From Gemmatimonas sp. (GTDB taxonomy: Bacteria; Gemmatimonadota; Gemmatimonadetes; Longimicrobiales; Longimicrobiaceae), in the NCBI GenBank assembly GCA_009380025.1, contig WHSP01000021.1, positions 1 to 44,245 of the forward strand: a stretch of 44,245 bases of DNA. The letters are read 5' to 3'. The position numbers and the translations under genes were made by a program. The stretch's first letter is position 1; each line of letters opens with the position of its first letter. Under the pieces are notes generated by a model. The model did no database searches and was not told where the DNA came from. It saw only the letters and a list, made by a program, of their open reading frames with translations. This document shows, one piece after another, positions 24,550 to 40,673 of this stretch.

Positions 24550-24768
24550 TTACTTGTGTCGGAACGTGATGCGACCACGGCTCAGATCGTACGGCGACAC
24601 CTCGACGTCGACCCGATCTCCCTCGAGAACGCGGATTCGGTACTTCCTCATTTTGCCTGCGATCGTAGCCAGAACTTCATGCCCGTTGTCGAGCCGCACC
24701 CGGAAACGAAGATCCGGGAGAACCGAAGTCACTGCTCCCTGCACTTCAATCGCGTCCTGCTTCGCCAT
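24550..24768 (-). CDS. infA: Translation initiation factor IF-1
   Basis: 72 residues, full length for IF-1: [20 protein letters not shown], then [20 protein letters not shown] and the ending [18 protein letters not shown], an OB-fold that occupies the ribosomal A site during initiation. GGAGG lies six bases before the ATG. The methyltransferase gene follows on the same strand. Some bacteria carry extra infA copies away from the ribosomal-protein operons; whether this is the only copy cannot be told. Confidence 0.97.
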
Positions 24769-24906: not shown

Positions 24907-25170
24907 AGCGGTTAGCGAAATGCAAGCGTACTCGGCATTCTACGATCTAGACGACGCGGCAGGCGTAACTCCCTGACGGAAGGCCGTGCCTTTGGGCGAG
25001 TCTTCAGATCAGCGCTGTCCCACCCTGTCGAGGAAGCCGTCGCTGCTCGATGCAGCCGCTGTCGATCACGTTCATAACGCCCCTTTTTGGGGTCTCGGGC
25101 CGTCTGGCGCCACGCAAGCGGCGAAGGTGCAGCGGCGCAGTGGGTCGCAAGATCTGAGGCGCGTGCTAAC
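24866..25170 (-). repeat. Dispersed structured element, copy A
   Basis: On the minus strand this 300-base segment aligns collinearly with the plus strand of 26,790-27,080. Matching blocks: 25125-25102 against 26840-26863 (23 of 24 bases), 24965-24949 against 26990-27006 (16 of 17), 24930-24914 against 27025-27041 (16 of 17) and the terminal hairpin. Spacing between the last blocks is identical (18 bases). Indels between blocks are not multiples of three, so it is not conserved as protein. It holds a short open frame (25075-25004, 23 codons) preceded by a CCCC-AAAAA-GGGG hairpin, of unknown meaning. Confidence 0.6.
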
Positions 25171-25331
25171 ATGAAGCGGCAGCAGCGCTTTGTCGGACTC
25201 GCTTTTACAACTGGGAAAGCTAACCCGAGTCAGCGTCCCACGGCAACCCAGGATCTGGTACGATCGTCTAAGCCGTGACCGGCGCCCGCGGCGACTGACC
25301 ATCGCCAGCTGGTCCAGCGAACTCATCTTGC

Positions 25332-26403
25332 TCAATCCGCCGCGAGGCTGCGGGAGGTCTCGTCGTACGGGGACGAACCCGACGCTTCCGCGGGCGGCGG
25401 AATCATCGTGGCGAGAATCGCCGCTCCCATCGAGACGGTCCCGAAGAGCAGCAGCACGCTCGTGAACGATGAGGTGGATTGTGCCAATAAAGCCGCAACG
25501 GGTGGCCCGACGGCCGTGGCTCCGTTTCTTGCGGCCTGGACGATTCCTTTGATTCGGCCGAGGCTCAGGATTCCGAAATAGTCGGGCCACAGCACGGCGT
25601 TTGAAGGCGGGCAGCCGTAGGGTCTCCTGCAGCGAGTACTCGGGATCGGGCCGCCGATCGTCGAACCGTTGATTTTTTTCGACTACTCCGCTCGCCGCGA
25701 ATCCGTCAACGGTTTCGCCGGGGTGCCGGCCCCGAAGGGCCCACGCAACGAGTGGGGACGCCAGGAGCAGGTAGACCGCGCCGAAGAATGCCAGTGAGCT
25801 CCGCCAGCCGACACTCTCGATCAGAGCGTAGATCGCACTCGGAAACGCCAGCTCTCCGAGCGCGAACCCGAGGCTCGCGATCGCGAGTGCCCGTCCCCGG
25901 TAGCGGCTGAACCACCGGACAACCGTCGTGAGGGTGCCGAGCCCGATTGCCCCCTGTCCGAGGAGTCGCACCGCTACGAAAGCGACCGCAAGGCCGAGCG
26001 TGGTATCGACGCGGGAGAAGCCGATCATCGCCAAGCCCAGTAGAAAGATCGTCCCGCCGAGAAACAGCCGCGCCGAGATCCGATCCGCGAGTGCCCCGAC
26101 CGAAGGCAGAAAGCCTGCGGCGATGAGGGTCGCGATGGCGTAGATGGACGAGATCTCCACCCGCGATATGTCCAGGTCGCCCATCAACTCATCGAGGTAG
26201 AGAGCGATGGCGAACGACTGGCCGGGTGAGGTGAGGGCGGAGCAGAGGAAGGCGACGCCTACGACGACCCATCCATAGTAACCGCTGTTCGGGACGAGTC
26301 GCTTCAGCAAATCTCTGTCGGAGTCTCGTGGGCTCAGAGTGAGCGTTGTGCGCCGGTCTGTCCGGCGCCGCCTCCGTACCCGCAGATCGCGAACACGATC
26401 CAC
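25332..26403 (-). pseudogene. MFS transporter with internal deletion
   Basis: The N-terminal part (from GYYGWVVVGVAFLCSALTSP through six membrane helices with LADRISARLFLGG, MFS motif A, to PEYSLQETLRLPAF) belongs to an OFA-like major facilitator. At about 25,590-25,600 the frame changes and the sequence jumps to LWPDYFGILSLGRIKGIVQA and the last two helices, ending SGSSPYDETSRSLAAD. About 100 residues that should hold helices 7-10 are missing, so this is a deletion derivative and not just a frameshift. The start is not clear; no good ribosome site was seen. It lies between the two copies of the inverted element. Confidence 0.8.
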
Positions 26404-26536
26404 TCGACCGAGTCCTCCTCTGCCGACTGTGAGCCGGCTCGGCGAACGCGGTAATACGCCATCGATGAGGACCTGGACCGTGAGGGCTACAGGCGCCCTT
26501 TCGGCCAGCTCGAATGCCGGCTCGGCGTCGCGTGTC

Positions 26537-26702
26537 CTTGCTGCGCGGATTCGGCCAACAGATCCTGCGCGATTACGATCGCCTCGACGTGCTGGTGAGC
26601 AACGCCGGCATCTGGCTGACGCCCGAGCAGGGACGACGGGTGAGCGCGGACGGGCACGAGATGCACTTCGCCGTCAACTACCTCTCCCATTATCTGACAG
26701 CT
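26537..26702 (+). pseudogene. N-terminal fragment of a short-chain dehydrogenase
   Basis: The reading LRDYDRLDVLVSNAGIWLTP and EMHFAVNYLSHYLT contains the SDR motif (N-A-G) and the conserved NYL helix that follows. The glycine-rich nucleotide-binding start and the catalytic Tyr/Lys are absent. It ends abruptly just before the promoter of repeat copy B, which suggests that the insertion or formation of that element cut the gene. The flanking stretch 26,404-26,536 holds no recognisable gene. Confidence 0.7.
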
Positions 26703-26716
26703 GCAGTCGAGGCGCC

Positions 26717-26745
26717 TTGTGCATGAAAGACATAGGGTATATTAT
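26717..26745 (+). promoter_or_regulatory. Promoter in front of repeat copy B
   Basis: TTGTGC (26717-26722) and TATTAT (26740-26745) are separated by exactly 17 bases, in the most AT-rich short stretch of the neighbourhood. Transcription would begin near 26,752, directly at a GCGCGG/CCGCGC hairpin (26754-26770). Confidence 0.6.
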
Positions 26746-26751
26746 ACAAGG

Positions 26752-27080
26752 TTGCGCGGGCTGACCGCGCGATGTGCTGCCGCGAGGAGTTCGCTGCGGC
26801 ACGCGCCAGGATCTGAAGACAGGCTGCCGCCGCTGCGCTTTCGCCGCTTGCGTGCCGCCAGACTGCCCCAGGGACTCGGGAGCGTGAAGACGATGGAAAA
26901 CGGCAGCTTCGAACGCATCGAATCGATCGCGGCCACTCAGCCCTGACTCAATACGTACGCAATCGGGCACGGCTTCCGTGAGGAGGTTGCGCCTGCCGCG
27001 TCATCTGGCTCGAAATCGCCCGAATACGCTTGCAGTTCGCTCCCGCCCCGGAGGCCGATGCCTCCGGGGCGTTTTGTTGT
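26752..27080 (+). ncRNA. Putative structured RNA, repeat copy B
   Basis: A promoter, about 300 bases rich in perfect short stems (GCGCGG/CCGCGC at 26754-26770, TGCCGC/GCGGCA shortly after) and a strong terminator make a self-contained transcription unit with no substantial gene. Its 3' two thirds are homologous to copy A in inverted orientation. It contains a 17-codon open frame (ATG 26893 to TGA 26946) that is not conserved in copy A. It does not have the marks of tmRNA, RNase P RNA, 6S or SRP RNA. A small RNA or the end of an uncharacterised mobile element would both fit. Confidence 0.45.
27046..27080 (+). terminator. Rho-independent terminator of copy B
   Basis: CCCCGGAGGC-CGAT-GCCTCCGGGG is a perfect ten-base-pair stem with a four-base loop (27046-27069), followed by CGTTTTGTTGT. 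One of the strongest terminators in the window. Confidence 0.85.
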
Positions 27081-27139: not shown

Positions 27140-27412
27140 ATGTTTCTCACGATGCTCGAGCATGGGGGACGAAGCTGGGTGGTAGACCTGAAGGCGATTC
27201 CCGAGACGGAAGGACTCGGGACGCTCGAGTTCTCGTTCTCGAATACGGCTGCGGACGGTTTGCAGCTCCGGCTCACCTGGCGGGTCACGGGGAAAGCGCT
27301 TCAGGTCTTGTCGCAGCAGGGCGCGAACATCAGTGAAGACGTGCTGCGTCGACAGTTGGATCGGGCGCTCGCGGAGGCGAGGTCCGTGGACGCGAACGTG
27401 GCGGGACCTTAG
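27140..27412 (+). CDS. Hypothetical protein (90 residues)
   Basis: Not recognised. It starts at ATG 27140 with GGGGGAG just before it. The first two thirds have the alternation of a small beta structure (LGTLEFSFSNTAADGLQLRL, then TWRVTGKALQVL), the last third is a helix (SEDVLRRQLDRALAEARSVD). No signal peptide or metal motif. Followed by a CBS-domain fragment in the same direction. Confidence 0.6.
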   Translation: MFLTMLEHGGRSWVVDLKAIPETEGLGTLEFSFSNTAADGLQLRLTWRVTGKALQVLSQQGANISEDVLRRQLDRALAEARSVDANVAGP

Positions 27413-31440: not shown

Positions 31441-31805
31441 CTGGAGCGCTGGGAACGAAAGGACCTCTGGGGCGAATTATCCAGGTGGTCCTCCTGCTCG
31501 GCCTCGGCCTCTCCTCTGTCGAAGTCCTCTGGGCGGACGAAGCTGAGCGAACGGCTTTCCTTACGCCTGAGGCGTCGGTCCCAGCTTCCGGTCCTGAGGC
31601 GCCAGCCCCCTCCCTTCCCGATGGGGAGAGCGATGACTGTCCGTGCATGTGCGCCTGCGCGTGCACGAATGCGCAGGCCATAGTTCTCCCCGATCGGATA
31701 ACCGCCGGCGTCGTCCTGCCGGTCGCGGCTTCTTCGCCGGCTGTGCACCTGTCGGGTCCCTGCCGCCTCTTCCCCGAGCCTCTCCTACCTCCTCCACGGT
31801 CGTAG
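31437..31805 (+). CDS. Small exported Cys-rich protein
   Basis: 122 residues overlapping the repressor stop (ATGA at 31437-31440). A hydrophobic N-terminal segment (residues 13-31) can act as a signal or anchor. The middle has the block DDCPCMCACACTN, five cysteines in nine positions, a likely soft-metal ligand; the rest is proline-rich and disordered. No family recognised. Its position between the metal sensor and a TonB receptor points to metal binding or sensing in the periplasm; this is inference. Confidence 0.65.
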   Translation: MTGALGTKGPLGRIIQVVLLLGLGLSSVEVLWADEAERTAFLTPEASVPASGPEAPAPSLPDGESDDCPCMCACACTNAQAIVLPDRITAGVVLPVAASSPAVHLSGPCRLFPEPLLPPPRS

Positions 31806-31891
31806 CCCGTCCATCGGCTATCACTCGACAGCCGACTTCCCGGACGCGCGTTTCGCTCCCGGACAGATTCCACACAACCGAGCTACGAAGA

Positions 31892-34063
31892 ATGATCCCG
31901 AGAAGACTGTGGACGGGTGCCGTCATGGCATTCCTGGCCGGACTAGCGCTGGTCGCTCCAAGTGTCGCCGCTGGCCAGAATCCCGAGGGCACCCTGCGTG
32001 TTCGGGCGATCGCCGGGAACGGACCGGTGGACGCGGCCACCGTGCGTTCCGATGGAGTTGGCTCGCTTACAAACGCAGCCGGCGAAGCGGTGCTCCACCT
32101 CCACGCTGGGCCGCACGAAGTCACGGTAGAGAAGCTCGGCTACGCAGATGCGGTCTTGGAGGTGGAGGTCGCCGCCGGCCGCGAGACCCTCGTCGAGATG
32201 TCGATGACTGAGCAGGCCGAGGAGATCGAGGGGATCGTGGTGACGTCCACCCGAACGGAGCGCCGCATAGAGGACGAGCCGGTGCGGGTGGAGGTACTGG
32301 CACGGGAGGAGGTCGAGGAGAAGCTGCTGATGACGCCTGGCGATATCGCGATGATGCTCAATGAGACGTCGGGCCTGCGGGTGCAGAACACCTCCCCCTC
32401 GCTGGGCGGCGCGAACGTCCGCATCCAGGGGCTAAGCGGCCGCTACACGCAGATCCTCTCGGATGGGCTCCCGCTCTATGGCGGGCAGAGCGGCTCGCTC
32501 AGCATGCTCCAGATCCCGCCGATGGATCTCGGACAGGTAGAGGTGATCAAGGGCGCAGCATCGGCGCTGTACGGCTCGTCCGCTCTCGGAGGCGTTGTCA
32601 ACCTGATCTCACGCCGGCCGGCGGAGGACGAGCGGGAGATCCTGCTCAACCAGACCACGCTTGGCGGTAGCGACGGGGTGCTCTGGCTCGCGGACGAGTT
32701 GGGCGAGCGGTGGGGATACACTCTGTTGGGGGGCCTCCACCGGCAGGGGCAGGCTGACGTGGACGAAGACGGGTGGTCCGATTTGCCTGGGTACCAGCGG
32801 GCTGTGCTGCGGCCGCGCCTGTTCTGGAACGACGGCGCCGGAAGGTCCCTCCTGGTAACCCTGGGCATCACGCTGGAGGACCGCGAAGGCGGGACGCGGG
32901 ACGGGAGACTCACGCCGGCCGGCACCGAGTTCCCCGAGCAGCTCCAGACGCGCAGAGCCGATGTTGGCGTGATCGGCCGCTTTCTCGTGGCTGGGGGAAG
33001 CCTGCTGACGCTGCGCGCCTCCGCGATGGGACAGCGGCACGAACACCTCTTCGGAGAGACGCTCGAGCAGGACCTGCATTCCAACGCCTTCGGCGAGGTC
33101 ACTTATGGAAGCGAAACCGCTGGGCACATCTGGCTGATCGGTGCTGCGCTACAGCGAGAGAGCTACGAGGCCGACGATGTCGATGGCTTCGACTTCGGCT
33201 ACACCATCCCCTCGCTCTTCCTGCAGGACGAGTACTCGCCGGTGAGGTGGCTGACACTCGCCGCGAGCGGCCGTCTGGACCGGCACAGCGAGTATGGCCC
33301 CTTCTTCAACCCTCGCGTCTCCCTCCTCCTTCGTCCTGGCCAGTGGACCACCCGCGCATCCGTGGGCACAGGGTACTTCGCTCCGACGCCCTTCACCGAG
33401 GAAACGGAGGCTGTGGGCTTGGGGCGGTTGGAGCCGCTCGGTGAGTTGCATGAGGAGACCGTGAGAAGCGCCTCCTTGGATGTGGGCCGCGAGTTCGGCG
33501 CGTTGGAGGTGAATGGAACCCTTTTCGGCTCCATCGTGGACGACGCACTCCAGACCCAGCTCGCTGGTGATCGCCTCCGGCTCGTGAACGCCGAGGGACC
33601 CACGCGGACCTGGGGCGGGGAGTTGCTCGCCCGCTGGCACGCGGAACCGTTCCACGTGACCGCGACCTACACACATCTGCGCTCCACTGAGTCGGATCCG
33701 GATGGCGCGGGACGGCGTGAGGTGCCCCTGACTCCGCGCCACGCGGCGGGAATCGTGGGGATGTGGGAGGCAGAGGGACAGGGACGAATCGGACTCGAGC
33801 TCTACTACACGGGGAAGCAGGAGCTTGAAGAGAACCCCTACCGGACGATGAGTCGCCCGTATTTTGTCACTGGGCTGCTCGTCGAGCGCCGCTTCGGGAA
33901 TGCCAGGTTATTCGTCAATGCTGAGAACCTGCTCGACGCGCGTCAGACGGCGTACGATCCCCTGATTCTCCCTGCGCGCTCGCCGGAAGGCCGTTGGACC
34001 ACTGACGCTTGGGCGCCACTCGAGGGGCGGGTGTTCAATGCCGGGATTCGTTACGAGTTCTGA
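31892..34063 (+). CDS. TonB-dependent receptor of the metal locus
   Basis: 723-residue outer-membrane receptor. Signal peptide at residues 1-28 (AFLAGLALVAPSVAAG), then a carboxypeptidase-regulatory-like beta domain (TLRVRAIAGNGPVDAATVRS to VTVEKLGYADAVLEVEV), a plug domain with IEGIVVTSTRTERRIEDEPV and GANVRIQGLSGRYTQILSDG and IKGAASALYGSSALGGVVNL, then a 22-strand barrel ending in VFNAGIRYEF with the aromatic terminus needed for assembly. Likely ligand: a metal complex, from its position among metal efflux genes; uptake beside efflux is seen in some metal loci. ATG 31892 chosen for the signal peptide. Confidence 0.92.
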   Translation: MIPRRLWTGAVMAFLAGLALVAPSVAAGQNPEGTLRVRAIAGNGPVDAATVRSDGVGSLTNAAGEAVLHLHAGPHEVTVEKLGYADAVLEVEVAAGRETLVEMSMTEQAEEIEGIVVTSTRTERRIEDEPVRVEVLAREEVEEKLLMTPGDIAMMLNETSGLRVQNTSPSLGGANVRIQGLSGRYTQILSDGLPLYGGQSGSLSMLQIPPMDLGQVEVIKGAASALYGSSALGGVVNLISRRPAEDEREILLNQTTLGGSDGVLWLADELGERWGYTLLGGLHRQGQADVDEDGWSDLPGYQRAVLRPRLFWNDGAGRSLLVTLGITLEDREGGTRDGRLTPAGTEFPEQLQTRRADVGVIGRFLVAGGSLLTLRASAMGQRHEHLFGETLEQDLHSNAFGEVTYGSETAGHIWLIGAALQRESYEADDVDGFDFGYTIPSLFLQDEYSPVRWLTLAASGRLDRHSEYGPFFNPRVSLLLRPGQWTTRASVGTGYFAPTPFTEETEAVGLGRLEPLGELHEETVRSASLDVGREFGALEVNGTLFGSIVDDALQTQLAGDRLRLVNAEGPTRTWGGELLARWHAEPFHVTATYTHLRSTESDPDGAGRREVPLTPRHAAGIVGMWEAEGQGRIGLELYYTGKQELEENPYRTMSRPYFVTGLLVERRFGNARLFVNAENLLDARQTAYDPLILPARSPEGRWTTDAWAPLEGRVFNAGIRYEF

Positions 34064-34489
34064 TGGTGGCTTATGGTGGCTATCAACACCAATCGCTGGA
34101 ATCGGCTCCGCTACACGGTAAGACCCAGAGAGGGCCATTCGCGAGGCCGCGCGGGTACTCCGCGACCCGGTGGCCGCGTCTCGGTCTTCGACAAGTTCGT
34201 TCCGGAGGGTCGTTTCGCCTTCAGCCCTCCGACGGGGCCTCAATGTTGTGACGAATGCGCTGTTCTCTGACGTCACCCGGAGGCTGGGACCTCTCCTTGC
34301 GGGCACAGGGCTGACAGTCGCGCACCGCGAACCGGCATTTTTTGAGGCGCATTCGAGATCGTGCTGCTCCGAAAGGTGTGACGCCGCGGAGGGCAGCGTG
34401 GCGGATCGCGCGCCTTCTCCGAACCATGCCTGAAGCGCAGGGTAAGATGCCGAATCAGGAATTCCACTCGAACTGCTGACGCCGAGATC
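34064..34489. other. Intergenic stretch without recognised gene
   Basis: A short reading near 34,090 (NRWNRLRYTV) recalls the N-terminus of some methyltransferases, but nothing follows in any frame. Several inexact GC-rich inverted repeats lie at 34,130-34,230. No promoter could be assigned. Confidence 0.3.
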
Positions 34490-34843
34490 GTGCTCCATCG
34501 CCTGGCCGCCGTGCTCATGCTGCTCAGTATCGCCTTCTCCCAGACGGAGACGGTGATGGGCGTGCTGCGCGACGGCACCGTCCACCACGAGAGCGCCGCC
34601 GCCGCGGCGCTGCATGCCCTCAACGGACAGGGTGAGCACGGGCACGAGGACGGTGCGCCGCACGGCCCGAATCACGAGCACGGCACCCCGGCGGACCACT
34701 GCACCCACCAACACGGCGCGCACGTCAACCAACGGGCGCCCGAGCTGGCAATCCTCGAGCACACCTTCTCAACGGGGTTCCTTGAACCCCTCCTCTGGCT
34801 GGACCGCTTCACCGAGCCGTTCTCTCCCCCTCCGCAGGCGTAG
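34490..34843 (+). CDS. His-rich exported protein of the metal locus
   Basis: 117 residues from a GTG start, with a probable signal peptide (LAAVLMLLSIAFSQTETVMG). The central part is strongly His-rich (GEHGHEDGAPHGPNHEHG, then DHCTHQHGAHVN), a likely zinc, cobalt or nickel buffer. The C-terminal FSTGFLEPLLWLDRFTEPFS resembles small proteins found at the start of cation efflux operons. It lies 147 bases before the TolC-like gene. Binding is inferred from composition. Confidence 0.7.
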   Translation: MLHRLAAVLMLLSIAFSQTETVMGVLRDGTVHHESAAAAALHALNGQGEHGHEDGAPHGPNHEHGTPADHCTHQHGAHVNQRAPELAILEHTFSTGFLEPLLWLDRFTEPFSPPPQA

Positions 34844-34990
34844 CCACTTCCGGCGGTAGCGGGCTTCGTCCGCCGCCGCGCTTCCGACGTTCCCAGAACA
34901 TCGAATCCCAGGGCGAAGTGCGCCCGGCCGGTGCGTGAAAGCGCATCCGTCCGTGCGGGCGGCGCACTGGACCACAACGGAAGGGCACCG

Positions 34991-36352
34991 ATGCAACGAA
35001 CCTGGTTGCTACGAGCCTGTACGCTTGGTCTGTGGGCACTCCTAGCTGGAGTGGCCCCGGCCCCGGCGCAGGCCATTCCACCCGGATACGCCGAGGCGAC
35101 CCGGGACACCATGACGATTTCACTGGCGGAGGCACACCGGCGGGCGCTGGCGGAGAATCCTGATTTTCTCGCGGAGCGTCAGGATCTCGCGTCCGCTCGC
35201 GGCGAGCTCAGGCAGGCGCGGGTTTACTCGTTCAATCCCGAACTCGAACTCCATGCGCCCGGGGTGAGTGAGCAGGCTGGAATTGGAGAGTTCGAACTGA
35301 CCCTCAGTCAGGAAATCGAGTGGGCGGGACAGCGACGGCTGCGTGTGCGCGGTGCACAGCGTGGGCTCGAGCGGGCGGAAGCCACCGTTCAGGACGCGGC
35401 CCGGCGGACCCTCGCGGAGGTCAGCACATCCTTCTACGAGGCCCTCGCCGCCGAGCAGCGACTCGCCGTCGCCCGCGAGATGGTTCAGCTCAACCAGCAG
35501 CTGGTTTCGGTCACGCGCATCCAGTCACGCGAGGGCGAGATCAGCATGATGGACGCGAATCTCGCCGAGATCGAGGCCGGTCGCGCTCGCGCGGCGGAGA
35601 TGGCTGCCGAGCGGCAGCTCACGAGCGCCCTACTGGAATTCCGGCGTCGCGTCGGGCTCGATCCGGAACAGCCCGTCCGGCTCGCGGATGAAGTCGTCGA
35701 CGCCCCTTCGCCCCTCGCCATGGGGGTCGATTCGCTGATCCGCCTCGCTCTCACGCGCCGTCCTGACCTCACCGCTCGGACCCGGCAAAGAGAGGAGCAT
35801 GAGGCCCTCGCACTGGCCGCTCGAAGGGAGGCCATCCCGAACCTCCGCGTCGGCCTCTTCCTGGAACGAGAAGAGAGGGTCGTTTTGTCGGGAGAGTCGA
35901 ACGAGCCCGTCGTCGAAGCCGGACTCGAGTCACCTCGGGTCGGGCTTGGCATCAGCATCCCTCTCCCGCTGTTCCAGAGGAATCAGGGAGTCGTGGATGA
36001 GCGCCTCGCGGAGGCCGAGCGGGCGCGACTGAGCCGCCAAGGTGTGGAGCTCACGATCCGTACGGAAGTGATGGACGCCTACCAGGCGTTCCTGGCCACC
36101 AGTGTGGAGCACCATGTCTTCGAAGAGGACGTGCTTCAGCCCGCCCGCGCCAACCAGCGCCTCCTGGAGACCGCCCTGCGGGAGGGGAAGGTAGGCCTCC
36201 CAACCCTTCTGCTCCTGAGAAACCAGCTACTCGACGCGGAGCTCAGCCACTGGGATTCGTGGCTGGAGGAGCGACGGGCGCTCGTCGCTCTCGGCGCTGC
36301 CACTGCTACTCCGAGCACGGACCTTACCTCGAGCGCCGAGGAGGCCCGATGA
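34991..36352 (+). CDS. TolC-family outer-membrane channel (CzcC-like)
   Basis: 453-residue outer-membrane efflux protein. Signal peptide to about residue 27 (LLAGVAPAPAQA), then two OEP repeats made of long coiled-coil helices: SLAEAHRRALAENPDFLAER and RVGLGISIPLPLFQRNQGVV are typical landmarks, the latter marking the barrel strand. It forms the exit duct of the tripartite pump encoded by the next two genes. Its TGA overlaps the adaptor ATG (ATGA at 36349-36352). Confidence 0.92.
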   Translation: MQRTWLLRACTLGLWALLAGVAPAPAQAIPPGYAEATRDTMTISLAEAHRRALAENPDFLAERQDLASARGELRQARVYSFNPELELHAPGVSEQAGIGEFELTLSQEIEWAGQRRLRVRGAQRGLERAEATVQDAARRTLAEVSTSFYEALAAEQRLAVAREMVQLNQQLVSVTRIQSREGEISMMDANLAEIEAGRARAAEMAAERQLTSALLEFRRRVGLDPEQPVRLADEVVDAPSPLAMGVDSLIRLALTRRPDLTARTRQREEHEALALAARREAIPNLRVGLFLEREERVVLSGESNEPVVEAGLESPRVGLGISIPLPLFQRNQGVVDERLAEAERARLSRQGVELTIRTEVMDAYQAFLATSVEHHVFEEDVLQPARANQRLLETALREGKVGLPTLLLLRNQLLDAELSHWDSWLEERRALVALGAATATPSTDLTSSAEEAR

Positions 36353-37533
36353 GCTTACCGATCGAATACCAATCCTGGCACCGTCTGGCCGCCTCGGCAC
36401 TCATCTTTTCTCTGACGCTTCTACAGGGCTGCGGCGACGATAGCCAGCCGGCAGCAGTCCTCGAGGAGGAGCAGGTCGAGGACGAGATCCACGACGTGGT
36501 GGTCCTGGACTCGACGGCTGTCGGGATCGCTAACATCACCCTGGTGCCGGTAGAGACCGTCCAAACAATCGGCCTCCCGGTCACAGGGATTATCACCTAC
36601 GACGCTAACCGGGTGAGCCACATCGGCCCCCGGATCGATGGCCGAATCGTGCGGCTCGCCGCCGATATCGGTGAGCAGGTCGCGGGCGGGCAGGTGCTCG
36701 CAATCCTGGAGAGCCCTGAGGTCGGGCAGATTCGGGCGGACGAGTCCGAGGCGGTAGCGCTCGTGGGCATCGCCCGGGAGAACTACCAGCGGGAGCTCCG
36801 CTTGGAGGAGCAGGGCATCTCCAGCCGGAAAGAGCTGCTGGACGCGGAAGCCGAGCTGCGCAGGATGGAAGCCTCCCTAAACAGCGCGCGCCAGCGGCTG
36901 CAGGTACTCGGTGCGGGGCAGGGAGAGGGCGGGCAGTTCGCGCTCATGGCGCCCTTCCCGGGAGTCGTAGTCGCCCGCCACGCCAGTCTCGGCGAAATGG
37001 CGAGTCCCGCGGACCAGCTCTTCACGGTTGCCAACCTCGACCGCCTCTGGATCGAGCTCGACATCTACGAGCGGGACCTCTCACGGGTGACGCGGGGGCA
37101 GGCGGTGGACGTTGCAACCGCGGCCTATCCTGGCCGGACCTTCCCAGGGCAGATCGTCTACGTCGGCGACATTGTCGATCCCGAGAAGCGGGCGGTCCCT
37201 GCTCGCGTAGAGATCCCCAACCGGGACAATGTCTTGAAGCCCGGGATGTTCGCGAACGCCCTGATCCGGGTGGGGAGTGCCGGGCCTCCTGTCGCGGTCG
37301 TGCCCCAGGAGGCGGTGCAGCAGGTGGAGGGGCGCTCCGTCGTCTTCGTGCCAGGTACCCGACCGGGTGAGTTCCGGGTGCAGCCCGTCGAGGTGGGTGA
37401 CGCCATCGACGAGGGTCGGGTCCTCGTGATTTCCGGCCTTCAGGCAGGGGACCGCGTGGTAACGACCGGGGCATTCGCGCTGCGCTCCGAACTTGCCGAG
37501 GGCGAGATCGGCGAAGCCGGCCACGGGCACTGA
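36349..37533 (+). CDS. RND efflux periplasmic adaptor (CzcB-like), lipoprotein
   Basis: 394-residue membrane-fusion protein. N-terminal lipobox near residue 27 (LLQGC) anchors it to the inner membrane. Then beta-barrel and lipoyl halves (GIITYDANRVSHIGPRIDGR, IGEQVAGGQVLAILESPEVG), a helical hairpin (RENYQRELRLEEQGISSRKE), the second lipoyl half (FALMAPFPGVVVARHASLGE) and the membrane-proximal domain. It couples the CzcA-like pump to the TolC-like channel. No His-rich N-terminal metal domain is present, so metal delivery may rely on the His- and Cys-rich proteins upstream. Confidence 0.93.
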   Translation: MSLPIEYQSWHRLAASALIFSLTLLQGCGDDSQPAAVLEEEQVEDEIHDVVVLDSTAVGIANITLVPVETVQTIGLPVTGIITYDANRVSHIGPRIDGRIVRLAADIGEQVAGGQVLAILESPEVGQIRADESEAVALVGIARENYQRELRLEEQGISSRKELLDAEAELRRMEASLNSARQRLQVLGAGQGEGGQFALMAPFPGVVVARHASLGEMASPADQLFTVANLDRLWIELDIYERDLSRVTRGQAVDVATAAYPGRTFPGQIVYVGDIVDPEKRAVPARVEIPNRDNVLKPGMFANALIRVGSAGPPVAVVPQEAVQQVEGRSVVFVPGTRPGEFRVQPVEVGDAIDEGRVLVISGLQAGDRVVTTGAFALRSELAEGEIGEAGHGH

Positions 37534-37544
37534 AGGAGACATTC

Positions 37545-40500
37545 ATGAGAAAGCTTATCGCCTTCGCGCTCAGGAATCGTCTCCTTGTCCTCGCGCTCAC
37601 GGCCCTGCTGATCGGTCTCGGCGTCTGGTCCATGCTTCGGCTGCCGATCGACGCTATTCCCGACGTGACGAACGTGCAGGTACAGATCAACACCAACGCG
37701 CCGGCGCTATCGCCGCTCGAGGTGGAGCGGCAGATCACGTTGCCCGTGGAGCTGGCAATGTTCGGTCTGCCCAACCTGGAGGAGGTCCGCTCCCTCTCCA
37801 AGTTCGGGCTCTCGCAGGTGACGGTGATCTTCGAGGAGGGGACCGACATCTACTTCTCCCGGCAACAGGTGCAGGAGCGGCTCCAGGAGGCCCGGGAGGA
37901 GATCCCTGAGGGCTTCGGCACGCCCGAGATGGGACCGATCTCCTCCGGCCTTGGCGAGATCTTCCAATACATGATCGAAGCAGAGCCCGGCTCCCGCATC
38001 GACGCTACCGAGCTGCGAACGCTCCAGGACTGGACCATCGCGCCTCAGCTCCGCGGGGTGCAGGGGGTAGCGGAGGTAAACTCCTTCGGTGGCTTCGCGA
38101 AGCAGTACCAGGTGCTGGTGCGGCCCGAGGCGCTGCTCCAGTACGGCGTGACACTGGAGCAGGTGCTGGACGCCGTCGCGGCGAACAACGTCAACGCGGG
38201 CGGCGGCTACATCACGCAGGGAGCGGAGCAGCTCATAGTCCGCGGTGTTGGTCAGGTGCAGGACCTGGATCAGATCCGCGGCATCGTGGTGGCCAGCCGC
38301 GGCGGCACGCCGGTGCGGGTCGCCGATGTGGCGGACGTCGCGATCGGCCACACGATTCGCCAGGGGGCGGTCACCGCCAACGGTGAGGGCGAGACTGTGA
38401 TCGGCATCGTGATGATGCGGATGGGCGAGAACTCGCGAACCCTCGTCGACGCAGTGAAGGAGCGCTTCGCCGCGGTCGCGCAGACTCTGCCGGAGGGGGT
38501 CGAGATGCGGGCCTTCTACGACCGCGCAGAGCTGGTTGAGCGTACCATCGCCACGGTAGAGCGGAACCTGGTGGAAGGGGCGATCCTTGTCGTGGCAGTG
38601 CTCTTCCTCCTGCTCGGAAACCTGCGGGCGGCGCTGATCGTGGCGATGGCTATCCCGCTCTCGATGATGTTTGCCTTCAGCGGGATGCTGCAAGCCGGGA
38701 TTGCCGGGAGCTTGATGAGCCTCGGCGCGATCGATTTCGGGCTGGTGGTGGATGGCTCGGTGGTGATGGTGGAGAACTCGATGCGCCACCTCGCCGAGCG
38801 GGACGAGGAGAAGAAGGGGTTCCTGCGCACCGTGCTGGATTCATGCGCGGAGGTGGCCCGCCCCATCCTCTTCGGCGTCGGCATCATCATCGTGGTCTAC
38901 CTTCCCATCCTGACGCTCGAAGGCGTGGAGGGGAAGATGTTCCGGCCGATGGCGCTGACCGTGGTGTTCGCGCTGGCCGGATCCCTGGTGCTGACCTTCC
39001 TCCTGACGCCGGTGTTGATCTCCCTCTTCCTCCGGGGAAAGGTCGAGGAGAAGGAAGTGTGGCTCATGCGCCACGCGAAGCGGATCTATCAGCCGGCCCT
39101 GACGCGGACCCTGTCCCACGGGAAGAGGGTGCTTGCGGCCGCGGGGGCACTCGTGGTCGCCGCGGTCGTAGCGATCCCCTTCCTCGGCTCCGAGTTCATC
39201 CCGCGCCTGGACGAGGGCGCACTGGCGATCCAGGTACTGCGGCTTCCCAGCGTCTCGCTCGAGGAGTCAGTCCGCCAGTCGACTCTGATGGAGGCGCGGC
39301 TCCGGGCGAGCTTCCCCGACGAGATCCGCGATATCGTCTCCAAGACCGGTCGCCCGGAGATCGCCACCGATCCGATGGGCGTCAACATCAGCGACGTCTT
39401 CGTCATGCTGACCCCCGAGGAGGAGTGGACTCGGGCTGAAGACAAGGCGGAGCTGGAGGCGCTCATGACGGAAGAGCTGGAGCACATCCCTGGGCTGGTG
39501 GCCAGCTTCAGCCAGCCGATCGAGCTCCGAGTCAACGAGCTGGTCGCCGGCGTCCGCAGCGATCTCGCCATTAAGATCTACGGCGACGAGCTGGACGTGC
39601 TCTCGACGGTCGCAAACGAGACCGTGGCCGCAGTCTCCTCCTTGGAGGGAGCGACCGGATTCCGGGCGCAACAGCTCTCGGGGCTCCCCCAGCTCGAGAT
39701 CACAGTTCGGCCGGACCAGCTCGCGCGGTTCGGAATCAACGCCGCCGACGTCATGCGGACCGTGGAGGCGATCGGCGGCGTGGAAGCGACGACGGTTCTG
39801 GAGGGGCAGCGGCGCTTCGCGCTGGCGGTGCGCTTCCCGGAGGACGCTCGTAGGAACCCGCAGTCAGTGGCCGGGCTCCTCGTCAGCGCTCCAACGGGCG
39901 AGCGCGTACCACTCGGGCAGCTCGCCAGCATCGAGGTCGTGCAGGGCCCCTCTGACATCAGCCACGAGGCCGGAAGCCGGCTAGTGATCATCGAGGGGAA
40001 CGTCCGTGGCCGCGACATGGGCTCCTTCGTCCAGGACGTGGAGGAGCTGTTCGAGACGGGCTCGGTGGCCATTCCCACCGGCTATCGCGTGGACTTCGGC
40101 GGTCAGTTCGAGAATCTGGAGCGAGGCACGCGGCGGCTCATGCTGGTGGTGCCACTGTCGCTCCTCCTCATCTTCCTGCTCCTCTTCGCCACCTTCAACT
40201 CGCTTCGGCAGGCGGCGCTCGTTTTCACCGGGATCCCGCTCGCGACGGTGGGGGGCGTGTTCGCGTTGCTGATCAGAGGGATCCCGTTCAGTATCTCGGC
40301 GGGGGTGGGTTTTATCGCCCTCTTCGGGATCGCGGTGCTGAACGGCGTGGTGATGGTCAGCTACATCAATGAGCTGCGCGAGCAGGGGCGGCCGCTCGAG
40401 CAGGCCGTTCGCGAGGGCGGGATGACACGCCTGCGGCCGGTCCTGATGACGGCGCTAGTCGCTAGCCTGGGCTTCCTGCCCATGGCGCTGTCCAGCGGAG

Positions 40501-40673
40501 CGGGAGCGGAGGTCCAGCGGCCGCTGGCTACCGTGGTCATCGGCGGGTTGGTAACGGCGACGCTCCTTACCCTTCTCGTGCTTCCCCTACTCTACCTGCT
40601 GGTCGAGCGGAGTCACGTCGGGACAGGCCCCGGATCCGCTAAGGCAAAAGAGCTGGAGCTAGCGACCAGGTGA
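37545..40673 (+). CDS. czcA: Heavy-metal RND pump (CzcA-like)
   Basis: 1,042-residue HME-RND transporter with 12 membrane helices and two large periplasmic loops. RLPIDAIPDVTNVQVQINTN begins the pore domain as in the family. Membrane helix 4 contains DFGLVVDGSVVMVEN with D397, D403 and E410, the spacing of CzcA's proton-relay residues (D402, D408, E415), and unlike CusA, which lacks the first aspartate. This favours export of zinc, cobalt or cadmium. The start follows the adaptor stop by 11 bases. A GGGGC-AGA-GCCCC hairpin lies just after the stop without a T run. Confidence 0.95.
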   Translation: MRKLIAFALRNRLLVLALTALLIGLGVWSMLRLPIDAIPDVTNVQVQINTNAPALSPLEVERQITLPVELAMFGLPNLEEVRSLSKFGLSQVTVIFEEGTDIYFSRQQVQERLQEAREEIPEGFGTPEMGPISSGLGEIFQYMIEAEPGSRIDATELRTLQDWTIAPQLRGVQGVAEVNSFGGFAKQYQVLVRPEALLQYGVTLEQVLDAVAANNVNAGGGYITQGAEQLIVRGVGQVQDLDQIRGIVVASRGGTPVRVADVADVAIGHTIRQGAVTANGEGETVIGIVMMRMGENSRTLVDAVKERFAAVAQTLPEGVEMRAFYDRAELVERTIATVERNLVEGAILVVAVLFLLLGNLRAALIVAMAIPLSMMFAFSGMLQAGIAGSLMSLGAIDFGLVVDGSVVMVENSMRHLAERDEEKKGFLRTVLDSCAEVARPILFGVGIIIVVYLPILTLEGVEGKMFRPMALTVVFALAGSLVLTFLLTPVLISLFLRGKVEEKEVWLMRHAKRIYQPALTRTLSHGKRVLAAAGALVVAAVVAIPFLGSEFIPRLDEGALAIQVLRLPSVSLEESVRQSTLMEARLRASFPDEIRDIVSKTGRPEIATDPMGVNISDVFVMLTPEEEWTRAEDKAELEALMTEELEHIPGLVASFSQPIELRVNELVAGVRSDLAIKIYGDELDVLSTVANETVAAVSSLEGATGFRAQQLSGLPQLEITVRPDQLARFGINAADVMRTVEAIGGVEATTVLEGQRRFALAVRFPEDARRNPQSVAGLLVSAPTGERVPLGQLASIEVVQGPSDISHEAGSRLVIIEGNVRGRDMGSFVQDVEELFETGSVAIPTGYRVDFGGQFENLERGTRRLMLVVPLSLLLIFLLLFATFNSLRQAALVFTGIPLATVGGVFALLIRGIPFSISAGVGFIALFGIAVLNGVVMVSYINELREQGRPLEQAVREGGMTRLRPVLMTALVASLGFLPMALSSGAGAEVQRPLATVVIGGLVTATLLTLLVLPLLYLLVERSHVGTGPGSAKAKELELATR

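Follow-up and report, generated by a model that had tools for sequence, protein, structure and literature searches.

A possible leader-peptide element behind an apparent orphan non-coding RNA in a Gemmatimonas contig

The window analysed here, a 44,245-nucleotide stretch of Gemmatimonas sp. DNA, contains a short unit with the outline of a small-RNA gene. Is this an independent non-coding RNA gene, as proposed in the first-pass annotation, or the control leader of a neighbouring gene? The unit, called copy B (26748-27079, + strand), is delimited by its alignment to a second, inverted copy, with an inferred 5' end. Sequence comparison with distant relatives suggests a control leader with a proline-stop mini-ORF before stress and transport genes, and not a free-standing non-coding RNA. 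Copy B is judged to be a possibly decaying member of this leader-peptide (attenuator-type) element, an independent non-coding RNA gene being less likely.

The second copy, copy A (about 25211-24875, - strand), was delimited by BLAST and by profile alignment to copy B. The two copies are inverted, lie about 1.5 kb apart and are 70% identical over 280 nt (BLAST, E 3e-21), with blocks of near-90% identity within (44 nt at 89%). A two-sequence profile aligns them along the entire unit, and the similarity sets in near the proposed 5' end and finishes at the intrinsic terminator in both copies. They are the only matches with E <0.1 in their own genome. Copy A is followed by infA, encoding IF-1 (24559-24768, - strand). 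Among 30 infA loci in 19 of the 21 genomes of the family, no infA-adjacent homologue with E <2 was found except the window's own, and copy A therefore does not represent a general infA leader.

Divergent to copy B lies an MFS transporter ORF (25072-26403, - strand), whose 3' end overlaps copy A. Its similarity to MFS proteins ends about half way, and the ORF is probably degraded. A scrap resembling a short-chain dehydrogenase was read by eye at 26570-26700 on the + strand (VSNAGIW...HFAVNYLSHYL); the ORF overlapping it (26339-26764) has no Pfam match. Elsewhere in the window, positions 31643-40673 (+ strand) hold, consecutively, a TonB-dependent receptor, an outer-membrane efflux protein, an HlyD-type adaptor and an AcrB-type pump.

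Copy B can be divided into several parts, all on the + strand. The promoter claimed earlier corresponds to a motif that is present just upstream, TTGTGC-N17-TATTAT (26717-26745); it is weak, is equalled by 15% of shuffles and fails the consensus rule of the promoter tool, which returned no site at copy B. The stem GCGCGG/CCGCGC, placed at the first nucleotides by the same annotation, is complementary at 26754-26759/26765-26770, but the minimum-energy fold gives its bases other partners, and it is not kept in copy A. The other stem described, TGCCGC/GCGGCA, is present at 26778-26783/26796-26801 in the predicted fold, within the 5' hairpin GUGCUGCCGC/GCGGCAC-GCGC (26774-26806); a similar hairpin can be drawn for copy A. 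It is followed by a GC hairpin block (26822-26859) in which pyrimidine mismatches are conserved and the loop varies; this block is the part common to other genomes. Behind the block come an RBS-like CGGGAG (26877-26882) and a 17-codon ATG ORF, MENGSFERIESIAATQP (26893-26946), which occupies the position of the Ser/Thr-Pro-Pro-stop ORFs of the relatives and ends in Gln-Pro-UGA (QP, not PP). Further down are a predicted hairpin, CUUCC-GUGA-GGAGG (26973-26986, within 26970-26986), and the segment CGGCUUCCG (26970-26978), which could pair alternatively with 27049-27057. The unit closes, as had been described, with an intrinsic terminator (27044-27079) made of a 12-bp stem (27044-27071) and a U-rich tail; the terminator stem of copy A has 7 bp (24896-24880, - strand). 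The candidate controlled gene is a 90-codon orphan ORF 3' of copy B (27140-27412), for whose protein no homologue was found in the four other genomes queried.

The absence of tmRNA, 6S, SRP and RNase P hallmarks, noted previously, is borne out by the covariance searches. Rfam returned no match at gathering score in the window, the region in question gave only sub-threshold matches (E of at least 0.44), and ARAGORN returned no match in the window. In the loci of six other members, described below, the only Rfam match was sub-threshold (E 0.2) and lay outside the element; the sole RNA match of the G259 locus is a tRNA, also away from the element. The tmRNA, tRNA and Rfam families were rejected as identities for the element, as neither a covariance model nor ARAGORN matched it. 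The sul1 RNA (RF03058) was likewise unmatched in the window and in the new members.

Six further places in five genomes carry the GC hairpin of copy B: one each in G387, G259, G330 and G240, and two in G271. The one in G387 (41 bits) was the single convincing new place from a covariance search with the 5' core in 394 genomes of the class (own genome included). The other five were found by combining BLAST of the block (325 genomes) with a gapped pattern (394 genomes). The pattern matched 14 places in 13 genomes; the extended block is present in seven of them, in six genomes and with copy B included, and the other seven were dropped as chance, the rest of the block and the ORF being absent. As a reversed control pattern matched more often than the pattern itself (about 33 places, counted from the table), the pattern alone proves nothing, and membership rests on extended similarity in nhmmer, with a profile built from these member sequences themselves. 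In the block BLAST, 35 of 325 genomes matched at E <=0.01; matches other than those in G000, G240, G271 and G259 were judged to be chance, the best-scoring ones by sequence or model score and the remainder by score alone.

Other searches added no members. BLAST of copy B against 61 genomes returned its own genome and one coding-looking match of 29 nt. With a model of the 3' core, three weak matches turned up elsewhere (E 0.003-0.007); at these places the 5' core is missing or scores far lower than in members, and for this reason they were judged to be chance. When the 3' half was compared by BLAST with 394 genomes, 52 of them matched at E <=0.01, nearly all at the terminator hairpin, and the single longer match (G013) falls within an ORF; all were discarded. 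A 19-base block pattern hit 10 places in the genome-contig collection, all judged to be chance, and blastn against phage and plasmid collections gave no match. Patterns applied to viral_contigs retrieved 0 and 83 stretches, none with a member-like score.

RNAfold gives the GC block a near-identical shape in six of the seven sequences submitted, the exception being copy A. Its stability is no higher than that of shuffles, and the idea of an unusually stable stem is not supported. Conserved coding was rejected, since the inner spacer differs between members by non-multiples of three. The fold of the whole unit is not more stable than shuffles either (z -0.65 for copy B, -0.77 for copy A). Against column shuffles, the two-sequence consensus fold reaches z -2.83 with the terminator and -1.65 without it on the forward strand, and -2.07 and -0.96, respectively, on the reverse strand.

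The first-pass annotation had described the 17-codon frame as not conserved. In copy A the frame is in fact out of register; the ORF there reads MNVIDSGCIEQRRLPRQGGTALI, and no Pro-stop ORF of the relatives' kind is found. Other genomes, though, have an ORF at the corresponding position, which makes this description misleading. Seven of the eight members have an RBS, an ATG and an ORF of 16-23 codons behind the block at a similar distance; G387 has no RBS and ORF of this kind. Outside the own genome, the RBS and the 16-23-codon ORF are present at five of the six places, and all five ORFs end in Ser/Thr-Pro-Pro-UGA. The peptides, as read from the sequence, are MHEHHGTSAHGATLSPP in G330, MHEHHGTTAPGTTLSPP in G240, MRTIITPNHRVPLTPP and MRTIITPSYRVRLTPP at the two places of G271, and MCNPLPAASQSVRATRRGFQTPP in G259. 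A PP-stop ending is thus found in five of the eight members, a single proline in copy B, and none in copy A and G387.

Two controls were applied to this ORF. In 5000 shuffles per member, an RBS with an ORF of 12-30 codons arises in at most 1.4% and a PP-stop ending in at most 0.06%, figures that flatter the result because the distance range was chosen after looking. The second control is less favourable to the leader reading: among the ATG ORFs of 12-30 codons found in the collected loci, 35 of 2169 end in PP-stop, and 23 of 387 (5.9%) of those with an RBS, in a sample that includes the elements themselves many times over. Within each of the two sister pairs, the ORFs are identical in their first codons and in their peptide ends (LTPP-stop and LSPP-stop) and differ in the middle without a frameshift. 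The hairpin behind the ORF shows paired changes between the two G271 copies. A U-tract hairpin like that of copy B is absent from the following 400 nt in every relative outside the own genome.

The gene clusters around the element hold genes for a SulP anion transporter, Usp, or TraR/DksA-like, MFS or GroEL-like proteins. SulP and Usp genes lie downstream of the element in G240, G330 and both places of G271; in G240 and G330 an antisense TraR/DksA-like gene is located between the element and SulP. In G387, Usp, SulP and MFS genes are on the divergent side, and the other side has a TOBE-domain protein (weakly IF-1-like) and a TraR/DksA-like ORF. The MFS protein of G387 is 42% identical to that of the window over 224 residues and has the same divergent layout. 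G259 has an MFS gene and a TraR-like gene divergent to the element and a GroEL-like gene downstream. The next gene is on the same strand for copy B (27140), copy A (infA), both G271 places (SulP) and G259 (GroEL-like). Pfam was run on SulP, Usp and TraR of G330, on Usp and TOBE of G387, and on MFS, TraR-like and Cpn60 of G259, where the TraR-like protein is below the cut-off; neighbour genes outside this set were named from the printed sequences. The GroEL-like protein of G259 is under the NCBIfam cut-offs.

Leaders of this SulP were also read outside the member loci. G302, the only one of five further genomes with this SulP at E <=1e-40, has a TPP-stop ORF in its SulP leader, MLVNTSVFEAARTLSRPTPP, and the GC block is absent. 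No clear RBS stands ahead of this ORF, and the hairpin behind it is unexceptional (z -1.38). On plasmids, this SulP has matches at E <=1e-60 in 1800 PLSDB records, and the identity is >=60% in 1598 of these. Seventeen plasmid SulP leaders were read (five of the top ten matches, seven taken for diversity and five gammaproteobacterial); the GC block was not seen in them. Eight contain a TPP-stop ORF, several of these leaders being close relatives: MTLTPP, MFLTPP, MRITPP (three), MRLTPP, LHITPP and a 31-codon ORF ending in SVTPP, each followed by a stop. LHITPP (L281) has a TTG start and was counted by reading, as the ATG/GTG scan does not pick it up. The leaders from Acinetobacter, Citrobacter, Escherichia, Enterobacter, Klebsiella and Providencia all have the TPP-stop ORF (7/7); Thiothrix, the eighth gammaproteobacterium, has none. 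The codons vary (ACG CCA CCC TGA, ACT CCA CCC TAG, ACG CCA CCA TAA, ACG CCG CCT TAG), and such differences in codons and stop codons point to selection on the peptide. For the first 13 loci (12 plasmids and G302), a PP-stop ORF is present in four leaders, compared with 16 of 524 other windows (Fisher p = 8e-4), these controls being overlapping 400-nt windows from elsewhere in the same loci, which are not all independent.

The PP-stop ORF is absent from the other nine of the 17 plasmid leaders: four have a sul1 RNA, four a GTG-TAA, and that of Tistrella neither. The sul1 RNA (RF03058) occurs in four of the five alphaproteobacterial plasmid SulP leaders read (L272 870-925, L273 870-925, L274 847-901 and L276 715-766), none of which has a PP-stop ORF. 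In L266, L267 and L270 (locus position about 2300) and L268 (about 2370), a GGAG was seen by eye, followed after 8-9 nt by a GTG and directly by TAA. This minimal start-stop ORF takes the place of the TPP-stop ORF and lies roughly 120-200 nt before SulP. In two Acinetobacter leaders (L271 from 875, L282 from 326), a 14-bp stem, CTAGTGATGTGGTG/TATCACATCACTAG, excludes a smaller upstream hairpin and looks like an attenuator pair. A terminator scan of two plasmid leaders gave none on the leader strand, and the 14-bp stem of L282 was not called. Among the literature matches listed, titles and abstract openings held nothing on the control of this kind of SulP or on TPP-stop leaders.

The reading we prefer, at a little less than an even chance, places copy B as a divergent member among leader RNAs that work with a leader peptide. 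Transcription would start near 26750, and the conserved GC hairpin (26822-26859) would precede the translated part, the RBS and the 17-codon ORF with its Gln-Pro-UGA ending. Termination at the C-terminal proline would be slow, and the dwell time of the stalled ribosome on the stop codon could determine the fold of the RNA that follows. The two alternatives in copy B would be an antiterminator helix (26970-26978/27049-27057) and the terminator (27044-27071), and the outcome would set whether the putative target gene at 27140 is transcribed.

When the transcript is truncated before the 3' arm of the terminator, the helix 26970-26978/27049-27057 (copy B numbering) is predicted in both copies, with 9 bp in copy B and 10 bp in copy A, which has one extra base on each side. 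In the full transcript, copy B folds the terminator and copy A retains the helix. Shuffles attain this candidate duplex in 15% (copy B) and 2.9% (copy A) of cases, and the consensus fold without the terminator 3' arm selects another hairpin (z -1.73, 5.8% of shuffles), so that the antiterminator/terminator switch is only a proposal.

In attenuators of amino-acid operons of the trp/his type, a leader ORF precedes a set of competing hairpins and an intrinsic terminator. The copy B family differs in having no run of regulatory codons, as only the last few codons are alike. According to PMC7246954, release from a C-terminal proline is inefficient in vitro, and the library of that study had no significant expression change from a C-terminal proline. 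TnaC of the tna operon stalls at Pro24-UGA and controls transcription, as described in PMC8429421. Both the inefficient release and the stalling of TnaC make a leader-peptide attenuator a likely way of working for the element. TnaC resembles copy B in its short leader ORF ending in Pro-UGA, and termination at the proline is its regulatory point, as proposed here. The arrest residues given there for TnaC are Trp12, Asp16, Ile19 and Pro24, whereas the copy B ORF is without Trp12/Asp16-type sequence and has no Trp; TnaC is also described as acting through Rho, whereas copy B has an intrinsic terminator. The sul1 RNA, listed in Rfam (RF03058) as a cis-regulatory riboswitch, also occupies the leader of a homologous SulP gene.

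Copy B could instead be an independent small-RNA gene acting in trans, its short ORF being incidental or part of a dual-function RNA. The earlier proposal holds as far as the discrete, terminator-ended unit is concerned, which was duplicated whole and has a strong terminator in copy B, and the antisense traR-like gene of G240 and G330 separates the element from the next gene on its strand. Independence is disfavoured by the RBS and ORF in seven of eight members, by the position of most members before a same-strand gene, and by the PP-stop ORF retained before SulP where the hairpin is missing. No Rfam family supports such a gene, and we consider it unlikely.

Decay is a serious rival, given the QP ending of copy B, the lost frame of copy A and the degraded MFS ORF: the copies would be what is left of such a leader, decaying and inactive, in a degraded gene island. 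With a degraded MFS gene beside copy B, the locus may be decaying; the dehydrogenase-like scrap seen by eye and the chance-level promoter matches agree with this. The near-90% blocks that persist between copies only 70% identical overall, and the terminators retained in both, speak against complete inactivity, which is rated as somewhat unlikely. It is quite improbable that the GC block is a ligand- or protein-binding, riboswitch-like RNA controlling translation of the ORF or gene, with the peptide ending secondary. Its conservation down to the mismatches, with a variable loop, would suit this function, as would the other structured RNA, sul1 RF03058, before the homologous alphaproteobacterial transporter. 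Its hairpin is no more stable than shuffles, though, and G302 keeps the TPP-stop without the block, which is also unseen in the plasmid leaders.

The leader-peptide reading of copy B can be extended, tentatively and with more doubt, to a widespread device whose shortest form is M-x-(I/L)-T-P-P-stop. It would govern SulP-Usp and related stress genes on proteobacterial plasmids and on chromosomes of the window's class, and the state of translation termination or of ribosome rescue would be sensed through slow release at Thr-Pro-Pro-stop. In this view, copy B would be an offshoot with an added GC hairpin before other genes. As a regulatory peptide, the product of a six-codon ORF in which Thr-Pro-Pro-stop is the conserved part would be very small. 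The locus also illustrates how an apparent orphan non-coding RNA becomes readable once distant relatives with a short ORF are found, and its link to Pro-Pro-stop leader ORFs before SulP and stress genes is the most useful result of this analysis.
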